From positions 1-41,669 of IMG/VR virus record IMGVR_UViG_3300042507_003861: 41,669 bases of DNA. One strand, written 5' to 3'. Positions within the stretch are counted from its first letter, which is position 1, and each line of letters starts with the position of its first letter. Shown here piece by piece: positions 4,674 through 40,867 of the stretch. The translations under genes and the position numbers were made by a program. Below the pieces are notes generated by a model. It worked only from the letters and a program-made list of their open reading frames with translations, made no database searches and was not told the origin of the DNA. The stretch comes from a virus.

Positions 4674-5228
4674 TCACCATGCTTTGCCGAGTTCTGGAAC
4701 ATATTTCTTTTTGCAAATCAACCGATTTTTCGGCTGATCGCGAAGAGGAATCCATCGGCAGTTATCCTTGAAATATCCTAGGTTATTGTCAATTCGATCA
4801 AGGCTGTAGCCATCAGGTCTGTCTCCCATGTCCTCGTAAAAACCTTCAAAAGAGAGCCACTTTTCACAAATTGTGACTCCTTTCAGTCTGTAGTATTTAG
4901 AATAAACGTGAGCAGGATTTAGGCATCTATCCTTCATTTTGATCCACGACCTGTACGATCCAGATCCGTACTTTCCGTGTCTTGTCGATAACTTGAAAAG
5001 CCATTCCGACGCAACGCAGTGATTGCACCTCCAAGGTTTTGACTGCTTGTCGAGCCTTCTGACGACATCAACTCTGACCAGTTTTGAGGTTTTGCAGACA
5101 TCGCATTTTAGGTCAAAAAATTTCCATCGACCTACTTTTACATGCTGGTGATTTGATTCAATAGTTTGCACATCGACAAGATAGCCGAAGTACCAACCAT
5201 TGCAACCCCCCACGCAGCACACGACCAA
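4674..5228 (-). CDS. HNH-type phage endonuclease inserted between two structural-operon genes
   Basis: This protein has up to 184 residues. The N-terminal half has a zinc-ribbon-like CDVC...CNHC pair. The C-terminal half matches a common phage HNH-like family: YRSWIKMKDRCLNPAH, YYRLKGVTICEKWLSFEGFY, DMGDRPDGYSLDRIDNNLGY and the NCRWI signature. The start is uncertain: the longest frame begins with TTG at 5228, and a GTG about 50 bases further in is an alternative. It is richer in A and T than the flanking genes. It overlaps the upstream basic-protein gene by 91 bases, as expected if it landed at that gene's 3' end. Confidence 0.75.
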   Translation of the reverse strand: MVVCCVGGCNGWYFGYLVDVQTIESNHQHVKVGRWKFFDLKCDVCKTSKLVRVDVVRRLDKQSKPWRCNHCVASEWLFKLSTRHGKYGSGSYRSWIKMKDRCLNPAHVYSKYYRLKGVTICEKWLSFEGFYEDMGDRPDGYSLDRIDNNLGYFKDNCRWIPLRDQPKNRLICKKKYVPELGKAW

Positions 5229-29358: not shown

Positions 29359-30606
29359 TTAGCTGCAAATGATCTGGGTCAGAGCGCCTGAACACCGACG
29401 GAAGATGATGGTCATTCCTTGGTTGGTGAAAACAGGCTCCGGGGCATGAATGAACTCAGCGTAGTGCTGACCCTTCTTCTCCAGCGGATCGGCGCAATCC
29501 ACATCGAGCTTGTAGGCACCAGTCACCCACTGCCACTCGCCCATGTAGTTGGTCGGCATCCAGCTCAAATCACCAACACGGTTCACAGGACGCACAATGT
29601 GCGACTTGAAGACATACGGGGTGACGACAAACGCAGCCTCGAACGGAGCGGTCGTCCAGCTCGGGTTGACGCTGAACACAGTACCTTTCGTACCGTTAGC
29701 ACTGGTAAACGGCTGAACCAGCGTGTACTTGCCGCCAGCGTAGGTGAAGCGGGGCGGGAACAGATTCGGCACATGCCGGAAGTTCTTGATGACCCGATTC
29801 GCGCCAATGCGCTTGAGCAACTCCGCGCCAGCGCCACTGCCCTGATCAGCGAACCGCACATCGTCGCGGAACGCGGGGTTGTTCTGAGCGATGCGCTGCG
29901 AAGCCTCCAGACCGATGTAGAGCGGGAACACCGGGCCGTCGCTGGAGTAGCTGATGAAGCCAGAGCTATCAGGATTGGTAGCGCCGTTGCGGATCAGCGT
30001 GGCGGCGGCGACATCAAGCATCTCCTGAGTCAGCTCGGAGGTGGACTGATTCAGCGCCTGACCAGCGGAGCCGGTCTGAATCCAAGGCAGCTCATTCACA
30101 CCGGCAACAATCGTCTCAACCTGAGTGAAGGACGAGTCGGCCACAGCCTTGATGGCGTACTTGGCGAACATGTTCTGGTAACGGGTTTCCCAAGAACGCT
30201 GAGCGCGGATGGAGAGCTTCTCAAGGTACACGCGCAAGAACGCCTCGACGCGATGGTCGAAGGTCAGATCGTCCTTACACAAGAGCGGACCTTTGAGGGC
30301 GAAACGCTCAGGACTCCAGGTAACGGCATTATAGCCGACCGGAACGTCATTGTAGGTGACATCGCAAGCGCCACCGTTATCGCCGGGATTGCCGCTGGCG
30401 AGCGTGATGGCCGACCACTCCTCAGCCGCAGTCGGCTCGATGGAGGTGGTGGTGAACGAGGTCTGGGTCAGACCAGTACCCTGAGGATACTCGCCGCGCT
30501 CAATCATGTTGAGCCACATCGAGCGGTACGAGGCGCGTTTATAAACGTCCTGCGCGAGCGACTCAGTAGCCACCGCGAAGGCGTTGAAGACATTAGGACA
30601 AGCCAT
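29359..30606 (-). CDS. Major capsid protein
   Basis: This 415-residue protein lacks signal and membrane segments and is rich in the mixed alpha/beta content of HK97-fold capsids. Typical features include an N-terminal helical SLAQDVYKRASYRSMWLNMI segment, a long central stretch with FDHRVEAFLRVYLEKLSIRA, and a late VVTPYVFKSHIVRPV...MPTNYMGEW region as I recall from podovirus major head proteins. It has its own strong terminator downstream, as expected for a highly expressed gene. The scaffold gene is convergent and 4 kb away. The stop lies in a 7-bp hairpin (29351-29368). Confidence 0.8.
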   Translation of the reverse strand: MACPNVFNAFAVATESLAQDVYKRASYRSMWLNMIERGEYPQGTGLTQTSFTTTSIEPTAAEEWSAITLASGNPGDNGGACDVTYNDVPVGYNAVTWSPERFALKGPLLCKDDLTFDHRVEAFLRVYLEKLSIRAQRSWETRYQNMFAKYAIKAVADSSFTQVETIVAGVNELPWIQTGSAGQALNQSTSELTQEMLDVAAATLIRNGATNPDSSGFISYSSDGPVFPLYIGLEASQRIAQNNPAFRDDVRFADQGSGAGAELLKRIGANRVIKNFRHVPNLFPPRFTYAGGKYTLVQPFTSANGTKGTVFSVNPSWTTAPFEAAFVVTPYVFKSHIVRPVNRVGDLSWMPTNYMGEWQWVTGAYKLDVDCADPLEKKGQHYAEFIHAPEPVFTNQGMTIIFRRCSGALTQIICS

Positions 30607-36774: not shown

Positions 36775-36803
36775 TTGACAAGAAGTGAATGGTGTTTTAT
36801 GTC
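36775..36803 (+). promoter_or_regulatory. Possible sigma70-type promoter upstream of the paralog pair
   Basis: A perfect TTGACA (36775-36780) is followed by 17 bases and TATGTC (36798-36803), which matches the -10 box only in its first three bases. The start of transcription would be only a few bases before the ATG at 36813, giving a nearly leaderless message. It follows a terminator, which fits a new transcription unit. Confidence 0.4.
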
Positions 36804-36812
36804 TTTCTTCGC

Positions 36813-37295
36813 ATGAGTTACTTATCCAATGGTTCAACCCTAAGGGCAACCTTCCGCAATATGGAGCCGATGAGGCACCATCTCGACCCGTCACAGTCCG
36901 AGGTTATCAGCCATATCCGGCGGACTTTGGACTACAGCGAGGAGGCTGCGGAAAGGGCGTTCAACAGTATGCGGAATCCGAAGAGTGGTGTGCTGCTTTT
37001 CGACCGAGTTCATCGACTCTGGTATGGATGCGATTGGACGCCAGACGAAGAGGATGCGAAGAAGGATTTCTTCACCCAGCGGTTTTCCGAGATGAAACGT
37101 GAAGTCGCCGCGCTTCGCGAAGAGGTTCGCGAGTTCTCTGAAATGAAGAAAAAGATCCACAAGGAATTGGATTCCATTTGGGAGACGATAGAAACTGGCA
37201 AGAATGGCCAACAATCCGACTCAACGAACGAGGATCAAGCGGCTCGCGAGAGACAGCAAGACGCCGCGAAAATGCAGAAGATGTGGCAGGCTTGA
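36813..37295 (+). CDS. Paralog A of a tandem pair of coiled-coil proteins, 160 residues
   Basis: The ATG at 36813 is preferred because residues 1-35 then align without a gap with the start of the next gene (FR at 14-15, RH at 21-22, DP at 25-26, VI at 31-32). The core VLLFDRVHRLWYGCDWTPDE matches ILVFDRIACVWHGRDWRPDD in the paralog. The C-terminal half is a Lys/Glu-rich coiled coil (MKREVAALREEVREFSEMKK). No known domain. A start at 36789 or 36861 is possible but breaks this alignment. Confidence 0.65.
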   Translation: MSYLSNGSTLRATFRNMEPMRHHLDPSQSEVISHIRRTLDYSEEAAERAFNSMRNPKSGVLLFDRVHRLWYGCDWTPDEEDAKKDFFTQRFSEMKREVAALREEVREFSEMKKKIHKELDSIWETIETGKNGQQSDSTNEDQAARERQQDAAKMQKMWQA

Positions 37296-37313: not shown

Positions 37314-37697
37314 ATGAAAACCGAAAAACTCTTCAATTCGACCGACGAACACTTTCGCATGATGCCGCCTTCACGGCACAGTGCAGATCCAGCTAGTTCA
37401 TCCGTGATTCAAAAGATCATGGATGCGCTGGACTGCGACATCGATGATGCGGTCAAAACTTTCGACCGACTGAGGAATTGGAGCCAAAACATTCTGGTTT
37501 TTGACAGGATTGCCTGCGTTTGGCATGGCCGAGATTGGCGTCCAGACGACGAGACGACCGAGGACGCATTGCGGCGTGAAGTTGCCGTTCTCATCGCCGA
37601 AGTTCGCCGACTGCGCCAGGAGGTGAACAGCATTCACAAAGGCTTCAACAAGCCATTCCACCGGAACAAATCGAAAAATTTCTACGGAAAGATTTGA
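37314..37697 (+). CDS. Paralog B of a tandem pair of coiled-coil proteins, 127 residues
   Basis: It shares the DRxxxxWxGxDWxPDxE core and flanking helices with the gene immediately upstream, so the two arose by duplication. The C-terminal coiled coil is shorter (VAVLIAEVRRLRQEVNSI) and ends in a basic tail. The ATG at 37314 has an A-rich leader. No known domain. After it comes a 144-base gap with a three-way-junction-like element. Confidence 0.65.
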   Translation: MKTEKLFNSTDEHFRMMPPSRHSADPASSSVIQKIMDALDCDIDDAVKTFDRLRNWSQNILVFDRIACVWHGRDWRPDDETTEDALRREVAVLIAEVRRLRQEVNSIHKGFNKPFHRNKSKNFYGKI

Positions 37698-37746
37698 CAC
37701 CATTCCAGACAACCCCAACACTACGTCCGCAACAATGACCAATTTT

Positions 37747-37830
37747 CTGCAATCGGGAATAGTGCGCGAAGAGAATTCGCGACGGGGTTTTTAATTGGAT
37801 TTTTATCCCTGATTAAACACCCGATTGCAG
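37747..37830 (+). promoter_or_regulatory. Three-way-junction-like structured element upstream of HTH-RecT-RecE operon
   Basis: A closing stem of 11 perfect pairs is formed by 37747-37757 (CTGCAATCGGG) and 37820-37830. Inside it lie a 6-bp hairpin (CGCGAA / TTCGCG, 37765-37781, loop GAGAA) and a second hairpin (TTTAAT / ATTAAA, 37790-37817, with an inner GGAT / ATCC and a TTTT tetraloop). The two arms leave single-stranded joining segments, which is the layout of many cis-regulatory RNAs. The 3' arm ends 11 bases before the ATG at 37842, and TCGATTTTTG follows it. It could also act as DNA, as an operator or replication site. It matches no riboswitch I recognise. Confidence 0.6.
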
Positions 37831-37841
37831 TCGATTTTTGA

Positions 37842-38147
37842 ATGAAAGTTTATACGGCCAAGGCCACAGCAGCGATGCTTCAAATCTGCACCGAGACGCT
37901 AAGGCGAATCGTTCGCAGTGACGGCATCCAGCACAGGAGAATTGGCCGACGAATCCTTTTCACGGAAGCCGACATCGCGGCGATTCTTGAGAGTCGAGCA
38001 ATGACCGGAGCTGTGAATCCGTACGCAAAGAAGACAAACAAACAACCGCAGACAGAGAATACAACCTATGAGCAACCAAGCAGCAACATTGACGGTGGCA
38101 GTGCCGTCGCAGCCAGCGCCGCAACCTCTGAGTCCAGCCAGTCCTGA
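37842..38147 (+). CDS. Excisionase/MerR-like HTH DNA-binding protein, 101 residues
   Basis: Residues 1-50 form a winged-helix HTH_17-type domain: VYTAKATAAMLQICTETLRR, IVRSDGIQHRRIGRR and ILFTEADIAAILES. Such proteins are recombination directionality factors or regulators. The C-terminal half is low-complexity (Thr, Gln, Asn, Ser, Ala) and overlaps the RecT gene by 80 bases. No integrase is visible, so it may regulate the RecT-RecE operon instead, possibly through the structured element just upstream. This link is inferred from position. Confidence 0.7.
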   Translation: MKVYTAKATAAMLQICTETLRRIVRSDGIQHRRIGRRILFTEADIAAILESRAMTGAVNPYAKKTNKQPQTENTTYEQPSSNIDGGSAVAASAATSESSQS

Positions 38148-38898
38148 CTTCTACGACCGCATCGACAGTCCGATGGATGCGGTGAAGACGATGGGCGACT
38201 GGATTAGCCACTCCGGCATGTTCGGATGCGTCAAGCCTGAGCAAGGGTATGTCCTCGCTCTGGAATGCATCGCCAGCCGGATGACTCCGCTCTCATGGAA
38301 GCGCGAGAATCATTTGATCAATGGCAACATCACGATGAAGAGCGAATCGATGCTCTCCGGTCTGATGAATGCCGGATGGGATATCGACTGGGTGCAGTTC
38401 GACATTCAGGCCGCAATCGCCGACTTTAGCAAAGGTGCGAAGAAGGTCCGTGTCTCATTCACCGCAGATGATGCGAAGCAAGCTGGACTAATCCCCGCAA
38501 AGCCAGGAAGCGGCTGGGCGAAGTTCCCTGCTGAGATGCTCCGCGCGCGTCTGATCAGCAAGGCGACTCGCATGCTCGATCCGCGAATCACGCAAGGCCG
38601 CTACACCCCCGAGGAGGTGGCAGACTTCTCCGCCACCCCATCAGCACCCGCTCAACCCGCTCCGACGCGCCAGACGGTCAATGTGACGCCGGAATCAACC
38701 TTCTCGCTTGTAGAGAAACTGGAGCAGATTCTTGAGCCACATTCCGAGACAGCGAATGCGTTTCTCATCAGCAAGAACCTCATCAAGGAAGGTCAGAACT
38801 TCCGCGATGTCAGCACCAAGGTGGCCAACATGATCATCGCCGATGCGGATGGTTTCATCTCCAAGGCTAAGGCGTTCTCAGCTCCCACACTCGAATGA
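38068..38898 (+). CDS. recT: RecT-family single-strand annealing protein
   Basis: The 276-residue product shows the RecT pattern: VKPEQGYVLALECIASRMTP with the LALEC helix, then SWKRENHLINGNITMKSESM, LSGLMNAGWDIDW and AGLIPAKPGSGWAKFPAEML followed by ARLISKATRMLDPRITQGRY. YTPEEVADF ends the conserved core at about residue 190; the rest is a Pro-rich linker and a helical tail. RecT anneals complementary strands and pairs with a 5'-3' exonuclease, and the next gene is that exonuclease. The start overlaps the HTH gene by 80 bases. Confidence 0.85.
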   Translation: MSNQAATLTVAVPSQPAPQPLSPASPDFYDRIDSPMDAVKTMGDWISHSGMFGCVKPEQGYVLALECIASRMTPLSWKRENHLINGNITMKSESMLSGLMNAGWDIDWVQFDIQAAIADFSKGAKKVRVSFTADDAKQAGLIPAKPGSGWAKFPAEMLRARLISKATRMLDPRITQGRYTPEEVADFSATPSAPAQPAPTRQTVNVTPESTFSLVEKLEQILEPHSETANAFLISKNLIKEGQNFRDVSTKVANMIIADADGFISKAKAFSAPTLE

Positions 38899-39689
38899 AC
38901 ATTCTAAACCGCCACGTTAATTTCGACATGCCAGCCGAGAAGTATCACGCCGTTGATGCGCTGAGCAAAAGCATGATGACCAAGATCCTCAAGTCACCGG
39001 CCCATTACAAAGCCGCGCTGGATGAGCATCAGGAGCCGAGCAAGGCGATGCAGCTTGGTACGGCGATTCATACCGCTGTTCTCGAACCGCACCTGTACTC
39101 GCAGGTTGTCGCCGTGATTCCGCCGGATATCGACGGTCGGACGAAGGAAGGCAAAGCGTGGAAGGAGCAGCACAAGAGCCGCATTCACCTGACTCATGCT
39201 GAAGACATCGATGTGCAGGGCGTGGCCAACTCTGTTCGTCGCCATCCGTTCTGGGACATCACGCATCTCGACAACAAGATCGAGGCCAGCGTGTTTGCCG
39301 AGGACGAGGAAACCGGCATTCCTCTCAAAGCTCGCCCTGATCTTTGGGTCGAGGACCACACCCTAGTCGATGTGAAAACGACCGACGATGCTTCGGCTGA
39401 AGCGTTCAGCCGCACAATCACCTCGTTCGGCTACCACATTCAAGCCGCGCACTATTTGGCGATGACCGGAGCGGAGAACTTCATCTTCGTCGCCGTGGAA
39501 CGCAAAGCCCCGTATGCCATCGGCATCTACAAACTGGACATCGAGTGGCTTCAGGCCGGTGAGAACCTTCGCAGGAAGGCCATCTCGACGCTCCACGAGT
39601 GCCGCGCACTGGACAGTTGGCCAGCCTATCCGACAGCAACGCAAACACTTTCATGCCCGAAATGGGTGCTGAATAAATCCGAGAGTTAG
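38895..39689 (+). CDS. RecE/exodeoxyribonuclease VIII-like exonuclease (PD-(D/E)XK)
   Basis: This 264-residue protein carries a RecE-type nuclease core: LSKSMMTKILKSPAHYKAAL and GTAIHTAVLEP, then E130 in KIEASVFAED, D149 in KARPDLW, and D159/K161 in LVDVKTTDDAS, followed by SFGYHIQAAHYLAM with Q183 and Y187. These are the catalytic residues of the family. It digests 5' ends to leave 3' overhangs for RecT. It starts in an ATGA overlap with recT, so the two form a classic Red-like pair. Confidence 0.88.
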   Translation: MNILNRHVNFDMPAEKYHAVDALSKSMMTKILKSPAHYKAALDEHQEPSKAMQLGTAIHTAVLEPHLYSQVVAVIPPDIDGRTKEGKAWKEQHKSRIHLTHAEDIDVQGVANSVRRHPFWDITHLDNKIEASVFAEDEETGIPLKARPDLWVEDHTLVDVKTTDDASAEAFSRTITSFGYHIQAAHYLAMTGAENFIFVAVERKAPYAIGIYKLDIEWLQAGENLRRKAISTLHECRALDSWPAYPTATQTLSCPKWVLNKSES

Positions 39690-39715: not shown

Positions 39716-40150
39716 ATGTTCAAAGTAAATCGAAAAGACGCCGGGGGCAGCTACATCAATGCCGAGGGCGAGTACACCGTCACCGTCACCAAGGTCGAGG
39801 AAACGCTCGATGCAAAGGGCCGTGAGGTCTGCAAGGTGACATTCGCAACCGAGGACGGATCGAGCATCGCTGACCGTTTCATCAACCAGGAGAATGTCTG
39901 GTTCCGCGTGAATCAGCTTGTTGCCGCCACCAACCACAACGTACCGGACGGAACCGAGGTGGACTTCCTTGGTAAGAAGGGTAGCTACGCCAACTTCCTG
40001 CGCTCAATGATTGGTCTTGAGCTGGCCATCACTGTCCGTACCGAAGAGTACGAATCGAATGGCGAAAAGAAAAAGGCATATCGCATCAAGAACATGAAGG
40101 CAGCTCCTGCCCCGACTGCCCCCGACTCCGACGAGGAAAAGCCGTTCTAA
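39716..40150 (+). CDS. DUF669-like putative ssDNA-binding protein, 144 residues
   Basis: The sequence EGEYTVTVTKVEETLDAKGR, then VTFATEDGSSIADRFINQEN, WFRVNQLVAATNHN and a KMKAAPAPTAPDSDEEKPF-like acidic C-terminal tail fit the DUF669 family seen beside phage RecT/RecE-like genes. The OB-like strands and a flexible acidic end suggest an SSB-like or recombination-accessory role. A second, unrelated SSB is at 337. Function is inferred. Confidence 0.65.
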   Translation: MFKVNRKDAGGSYINAEGEYTVTVTKVEETLDAKGREVCKVTFATEDGSSIADRFINQENVWFRVNQLVAATNHNVPDGTEVDFLGKKGSYANFLRSMIGLELAITVRTEEYESNGEKKKAYRIKNMKAAPAPTAPDSDEEKPF

Positions 40151-40222: not shown

Positions 40223-40867
40223 ATGAAAGTCAAAATCGCAGCAATCACAAAACCACTTGTCGGCGACGGCACAATGACCGCATCCGACTTCATCACGTTC
40301 GCAGCGCGGGTCAGCAATCCGAGCAACCAGATGAGCCTGCTCACCGCTCCGAAACTACTGGCCTACTGCATCAAGAACGGCCACTGGAGCATTTTCGAGC
40401 AGGCCAGTATGACGGTCGAGATTCAGACCAGCCGCGCCATCTCCGCTCAGATCATTCGCCATCGCTCGTTCTGCTTCCAAGAATTTTCACAACGGTATGC
40501 GCCGAGTGATTCGCCGGAGCCGGTCGAACTTCGCACTCAGGATCGAGTCAACCGCCAGGGAAGTGGCGACACTTTCGATCAAGACTGGGCTTACGACGCG
40601 GTTGCCAAGTCTGTCGATCTTGCGTTCAAGACGTACCGCTCGCTCCTGCAAGAGGGTGTGAGCCGAGAAACCGCTCGCATGGTTCTTCCGCTCTGCACAC
40701 AAACAACGCTGTACATGACTGGAAACATCCGCTCATGGATTCATTACTTCGAGCAGCGGTGTGCGAAGGGTACGCAGAAGGAGCATCGCCAGATCGCGCT
40801 GGCCATTCGAGACGGCATTTTTGCCGAGCATTTCAAGGTCATCCATGAGGCAATTACGAGCGAATAA
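40223..40867 (+). CDS. thyX: Flavin-dependent thymidylate synthase
   Basis: This 214-residue protein has the ThyX signature RHRSFCFQEFSQRY at residues 79-92 (the RHRxxSxxExSxRY motif with Cys in place of the usual Ser). FAARVSNP near the start and MTGNIRSWIHYFEQRC near 165-180 are typical. It makes dTMP from dUMP with FAD and NADPH and methylenetetrahydrofolate, supplying thymidine for phage DNA. It follows the recombination genes by 72 bases with no ribosome site visible. Length is normal for the family. Confidence 0.92.
   Translation: MKVKIAAITKPLVGDGTMTASDFITFAARVSNPSNQMSLLTAPKLLAYCIKNGHWSIFEQASMTVEIQTSRAISAQIIRHRSFCFQEFSQRYAPSDSPEPVELRTQDRVNRQGSGDTFDQDWAYDAVAKSVDLAFKTYRSLLQEGVSRETARMVLPLCTQTTLYMTGNIRSWIHYFEQRCAKGTQKEHRQIALAIRDGIFAEHFKVIHEAITSE

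Follow-up and report, generated by a model that had tools for sequence, protein, structure and literature searches.

An apparently new class of three-way-junction phage RNA, found in the leader of a recombination operon

We analyzed a window of 41,669 bases, an IMG/VR virus record, and found just upstream of its HTH-RecT-RecE operon an element that is apparently a real and previously undescribed class of phage RNA. Covariation shows that the predicted structure, a three-way junction, has been kept in a clade of related operons and in many unrelated environmental phages, although nearly all of its paired bases have changed. Judged from sequence, the element probably helps control the mRNA containing it, and it is most likely a cis-acting mRNA domain of a new class, which here would control how a recombination mRNA is translated or how stable it is.

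The element occupies positions 37747-37830 of the window, on the + strand. An 11-bp P1 pairs CTGCAATCGGG (37747-37757) with CCCGATTGCAG (37820-37830) and encloses P2 (6 bp, GAGAA loop) and P3, as a preliminary description made from the letters had proposed; the minimum-free-energy RNA fold is the same junction (-34.5 kcal/mol, z -3.8, with none of 200 shuffles as good). After the 5′ arm comes J1/2 (AATAGTG, 37758-37764; class consensus AAUAGAG), a conserved unpaired core, and then the P2 hairpin (CGCGAA-GAGAA-TTCGCG, 37765-37781; loop consensus GAGAN). The conserved J2/3, AC(G) (37782-37784), leads to P3 (37785-37809), in which GGG (37785-37787) pairs with CCC (37807-37809) around a variable loop containing TTGGATTTT. 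The conserved unpaired core is completed by J3/1, TGATTAAACA (37810-37819; class consensus UUGAACA). The 3′ arm ends 11 nt ahead of the HTH ATG at 37842, again as first described, leaving a spacer (37831-37841) that lacks a Shine-Dalgarno sequence and holds the short T run noted after P1 (TTTTT, 37835-37839). The preliminary description had also judged a perfect 11-bp match within such a short stretch improbable by chance. This is true locally (a 360-nt region yields one in 0.35% of its shuffles) but not window-wide: 1.2 such repeats are expected across the window on average, with at least one in 127 of 200 dinucleotide shuffles, so P1 is unremarkable by itself. Alone it is weak evidence, and the reality of the feature rests on covariation in relatives.

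We therefore turn to the relatives of the HTH and RecT genes collected from viral contigs, in which the sequence upstream of HTH was read. The P1 arms read CTGCAATCGGG, TGGCAACTGGG, TTGGCAACCAAG, CAGCGTTCGGG and others, each time with the complement in place; these are the compensatory changes in the closing stem that the preliminary description had named as support. A MAFFT alignment of 31 distinct HTH-RecT-RecE operon leaders (A1), which was not fitted to the structure, had 95.3% of its cells paired and two-sided compensatory change at 15 of the 20 pairs (nine of 11 in P1, with the same evidence for both arms). None of 500 shuffles matched the observed pairing, the number of two-sided pairs or the covariation score, and slid structures, used as a control, reached at most 44% pairing. 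Kinship inflates the covariation counts in A1, but the slid-structure control retains that kinship. All six pairs of P2 covary, and P3 is the weakest of the three helices (85%-91% of cells paired). The ten top pairs by mutual information in the HTH clade were all predicted pairs of the structure. An extra one (columns 21 and 77 of the alignment) lengthens P2: in a small number of sequences the G of UAGAG and the C of AC (J2/3) switch jointly to C-G. Because the alignments A2, A5 and A6 were fitted to the model, A1 and the blind test of the arms given below bear the weight. The likeness to cis-regulatory RNAs that had been suggested is, as to structure, strongly supported by covariation.

The class extends to unrelated phages. 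A search pattern that fixed core letters only (TAGAG, GAG, AC, GG and GAACA) and left P1 and P2 unconstrained matched 64 stretches of viral contigs, 33 of them new. Since both helices were free in the pattern, their pairing in the new stretches is a blind test. Among the 28 distinct new sequences, P2 had at least five of its six pairs in 25 and all pairs in 20, and P1 had a run of at least five pairs in 21; when arms were swapped between sequences as a control, the corresponding rates were 22%, 6.5% and 4.6%. True new copies scored 37-68 bits with model R1, and model R2 found more copies without the exact pattern, among them two or three per phage in six phages. Conservation of the core is partly imposed by the pattern in pattern-found copies, and is not so imposed in the HTH clade or in copies found by the model only. 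With clade and new copies together (A5, 51 copies), all 20 pairs changed on two sides (P1, 11 of 11), most with at least four pair types, and 95.2% of cells were paired; in A6 the figure was 94.4%. Three pattern matches without P1 and P2 were dropped as chance, and a weak R1 match in the genome collection, which overlaps a long ORF on the other reading, was discarded. The class architecture is a P1 of 5-12 bp, a P2 of 6 bp with a GAGA loop, and P3, around the core AAUAGAG / AC / UUGAACA. By these comparisons the RNA is a wider class that is not tied to the HTH-RecT operon, and the interpretation first offered is borne out in part.

Other copies lay between or after genes, frequently but not universally near replication or recombination genes. 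Their neighbours include a RusA-like resolvase, a DnaB helicase with SSB, a DNA polymerase with an exonuclease, a clamp loader, a PAPS reductase and a tRNA-Arg; the contexts examined held no consistent neighbour-gene function hinting at a ligand or protein partner. RecE neighbours the element in two more phages, and in one genome (G139) a promoter-like sequence, a copy and a gene start again follow one another, with RecE as the next gene. Copies followed the last gene of an operon at four loci and lay 0-15 nt after stop codons at six. In a 64-kb phage with three copies (L416), one of them (5057-5128) is directly 5′ of tRNA-Arg(tct) (5130-5206). Another copy, with a perfect P1 (L417:1984-2072), lies within a same-strand open frame of 330 aa.

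On the sense strand of the HTH clade, G-U pairs outnumbered A-C pairs 42 to 1 with helix end pairs excluded, and the wider sets, with all pairs counted, gave 62 to 11 and 41 to 6 (these cells tally sequences, not independent events). That G-U so far exceeds A-C shows that a sense-strand RNA is what has been conserved, and it disfavours a DNA palindrome, which would lack such a bias. Moreover, the arms of two tandem copies in a single genome are unrelated (CTGCAATCAG vs. CAGCGTTCGGG) while their core is the same, which disfavours recognition of the arm sequence by a single HTH protein. Neither the conserved arms nor the wobbles without strand preference that mark a DNA operator or cruciform were thus found. 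The preliminary description had offered a cruciform operator and an origin among its possibilities, and an inverted repeat ahead of an HTH gene does suggest an operator for the HTH protein; however, P2 covaries too, copies occur in phages distant from any HTH gene, and nothing supports an origin. We regard a DNA element of any of these kinds as highly implausible.

We give almost no credence to an intrinsic terminator or attenuator made of P1 and the T run, another of the early suggestions. A T run does follow P1 of the window's element and of several others, but many relatives lack it, with CCCCC, CCAACGAACC or CATCCC in its place, and P1 encloses about 60 nt where a short loop is required. 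A GC-rich stem with a short loop and a conserved U tract was not found. The start codon, moreover, follows within 9-16 nt, and a terminator would make conservation of the core needless. One frame of the leaders carried a tempting uORF signal (I-E-x-x-E...R-Q-G...I-E-H-P), later excluded by indels and stops: a 1-nt insertion breaks the frame in seven leaders, in-frame stops fall in P2 at three loci, and the start codon is missing in two leaders (L131, on the same contig as L065, and L148).

In the window, a sigma-70-like promoter precedes the element on the + strand (TTGACA, 37694-37699; 17 nt; AACACT, 37717-37722), and its position predicts a probable transcription start at about 37729. The first gene of the mRNA encodes an HTH_17/excisionase-like protein (37842-38147; Pfam PF12728, E 1.2e-10; phrog_66). 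It is followed on the same strand by genes for a RecT-like ssDNA annealing protein (38068-38898; phrog_561, E 3e-9), a RecE-like exonuclease VIII (38895-39689; phrog_412, E 3e-76; DUF3799) and a single-strand DNA binding protein-like (SSB-like) protein (39716-40150; phrog_378, E 2e-10). We infer that the element forms almost the entire 5′ leader of the HTH-RecT-RecE-SSB mRNA in the window phage. Across the clade the order is promoter, RNA (zero, one or two copies), 9-16 nt, start codon. A promoter-like hexamer (TTGACA/TTGCAA and variants), a 17-nt spacer and NANNNT, usually preceded by TGC, were found 4-25 nt 5′ of P1 in 51 of 51 distinct leaders, by a scoring that favoured this form. The interval from the end of P1 to the start codon (ATG, GTG or TTG) is given after start-codon correction: a TTG chosen by script one codon early gave 7 nt, and the ATG gives 10. 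At L039, the P1 of the second tandem copy reaches the ATG itself. Neither T runs nor Shine-Dalgarno motifs show conservation in clade leaders.

Most clade leaders carry one copy, about twenty loci carry two in tandem, and one (L070) carries none. At this locus (2160-2215), the element is cleanly deleted, and the promoter and HTH start, both kept, are joined. The HTH leader is the only site of the element in the window phage and in 20 whole records from its clade. It remains beside HTH where an HNH-endonuclease-like gene splits HTH from RecT; such a gene, of ~170-190 aa and judged HNH-like by eye only, was seen at six loci.

The best explanation, to which we assign a probability of about one half, is that the element is a leader domain that represses initiation, is switched by a factor binding its core, and is reused in cis elsewhere. 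Given that Shine-Dalgarno sequences are largely missing and that P1 ends ~11 nt from the start codon, the leader in its folded form would cover part of the site where the 30S subunit lands and so reduce initiation, and it may also shield the mRNA 5′ end. The fold would be stabilised or released by a protein or small molecule specific for the conserved junction, and such control would make the element a switch for the operon of recombination genes. Other phage mRNAs would employ the same domain, again in cis and for the most part close to genes of replication and recombination. We infer that the element acts in cis on its own mRNA and that, in the window phage, its folded form lies where ribosomes land on the recombination mRNA. 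The promoter directly upstream in all 51 leaders, the 9-16 nt to the start codon and the recurrence of this order in G139 speak for a switch; the clean loss at L070, where promoter and gene were nevertheless kept, counts against one. Because copies also lie after stop codons or before terminators, a pure leader-switch role does not cover them all. An aptamer-like fold with covariation, one of the features expected of a riboswitch, is present; copies lie in 5′ leaders in the window's clade, and elsewhere also after genes or before terminators.

The varied positions (5′ leader, just after stop codons, before terminators or tRNA-Arg) would suit an mRNA processing or stability element that senses nothing and, at either end of a transcript or between its cistrons, halts exonucleases or else attracts or withstands an endonuclease. 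The tandem copies would suit it as well, as would one sub-clade in which P1 begins about at the expected transcription start. A plain stabiliser, however, needs no strictly conserved junction and loop, and in the window's clade the distance to the start codon is conserved, which speaks for a role in translation; we think this account unlikely. A trans-acting RNA or decoy, freed from the mRNA and binding a host factor, could likewise explain a self-contained domain found in varied places and in tandem. It seems to us very improbable: the window has no stand-alone transcription unit for it, and the geometry to promoter and start codon is conserved in the clade.

We also tentatively entertain, as less likely than not, a new, widespread class of phage RNA with a biochemical activity of its own, by which phages of different lineages would set the expression of their replication and recombination genes. 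Candidate activities would be self-cleavage as a ribozyme, action on nucleases or RNA polymerase, or riboswitch-type sensing of a signal specific to infection. A small junction, an invariant unpaired core, variable helices and scattered intergenic positions in phages are what a new class of self-cleaving ribozyme processing phage mRNAs might show. Yet no Rfam covariance model of a self-cleaving ribozyme, hammerhead included, matched, and the junction strands do not read as a hammerhead core, which leaves such a ribozyme improbable.

Three-way-junction riboswitches exist, for example the purine and glutamine riboswitches. The element resembles them in its closing P1, two hairpins, conserved junction nucleotides, placement in a leader just before the start codon and some tandem leaders; it differs in having no Rfam match and another core, and in lying also after genes and before a tRNA. 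The autogenous translational operators of phage replication proteins in T4 (gp32 and gp43) are phage-specific hairpins or pseudoknots. Like them, the element is a structured leader ahead of a phage DNA-replication or recombination mRNA; unlike them, it recurs across unrelated phages and contexts. HK022 put, which acts as RNA, is V-shaped, being built of two stem-loops that no closing stem encloses (PMC9378689). The element is likewise a phage RNA of ~70-85 nt just 3′ of a promoter, so a put-like processive antitermination RNA, binding the emerging RNA polymerase and allowing read-through of terminators, was weighed. The similar size, the position right after the promoter of a long operon and some copies just 5′ of terminator-like hairpins favour it. 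Against it stand the enclosing, covarying P1, the lack of a terminator-like site on the + strand from the element to the end of the window, a frequency of terminators after elements that is not clearly enriched (3/28 vs. 28/460 random stretches), and a fixed start-codon spacing that antitermination would not lead one to expect; we doubt it strongly. The manA and wcaG RNA motifs are phage-associated orphan structured RNAs, mostly metagenomic, linked to exopolysaccharide and photosynthesis genes (PMC2864571). The element too is an orphan structured RNA carried by phages and mostly found in metagenomes, but its associated genes are others and it matches no Rfam family.

At the gathering threshold, Rfam release 15 gave no match in the window, and at E ≤ 1 it gave none in five clade loci and nine loci of unrelated phages; scans of short regions returned chance matches only, to miRNA, snoRNA and lncRNA models. 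Against annotated phages, neither blastn of the element region nor tblastn of the protein at 29359-30606 produced a match. RecT found only distant annotated phages, such as Verrucomicrobia phage P8625, all without the element. In the genome collection one distant RecT was found, in a MAG (L159) lacking the element; 400 genomes from the phylum of this MAG, the only phylum covered and probably not that of a host, lacked it too. The collections searched indicated no host for the phages, and no prior description of the RNA was found in the literature searched, which is part of the whole literature. Structured RNA classes common to unrelated phages are few. This class has a sharp consensus (AAUAGAG / GAGA / AC / UUGAACA) and very strong covariation, and studying it may lead to a hitherto unseen ligand, ribozyme or RNA acting on polymerase. 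Nature supplies leaders with no, one or two copies as well as genomes with several, and with them material for testing how environmental phages control their replication and recombination mRNAs. Annotators could detect the element with a covariance model built from A5.

Most genes of the window phage lack Shine-Dalgarno sequences, and this paucity points to a host with non-canonical initiation. Two adjacent paralogous genes lie 5′ of the promoter (36789-37295 and 37314-37697; 38% identity over 104 aa), and relatives carry similar genes ahead of the operon. On the other side, 3′ of the recombination genes, the window carries a gene for a ThyX-type thymidylate synthase (40223-40867; Pfam Thy1, E 9e-47).
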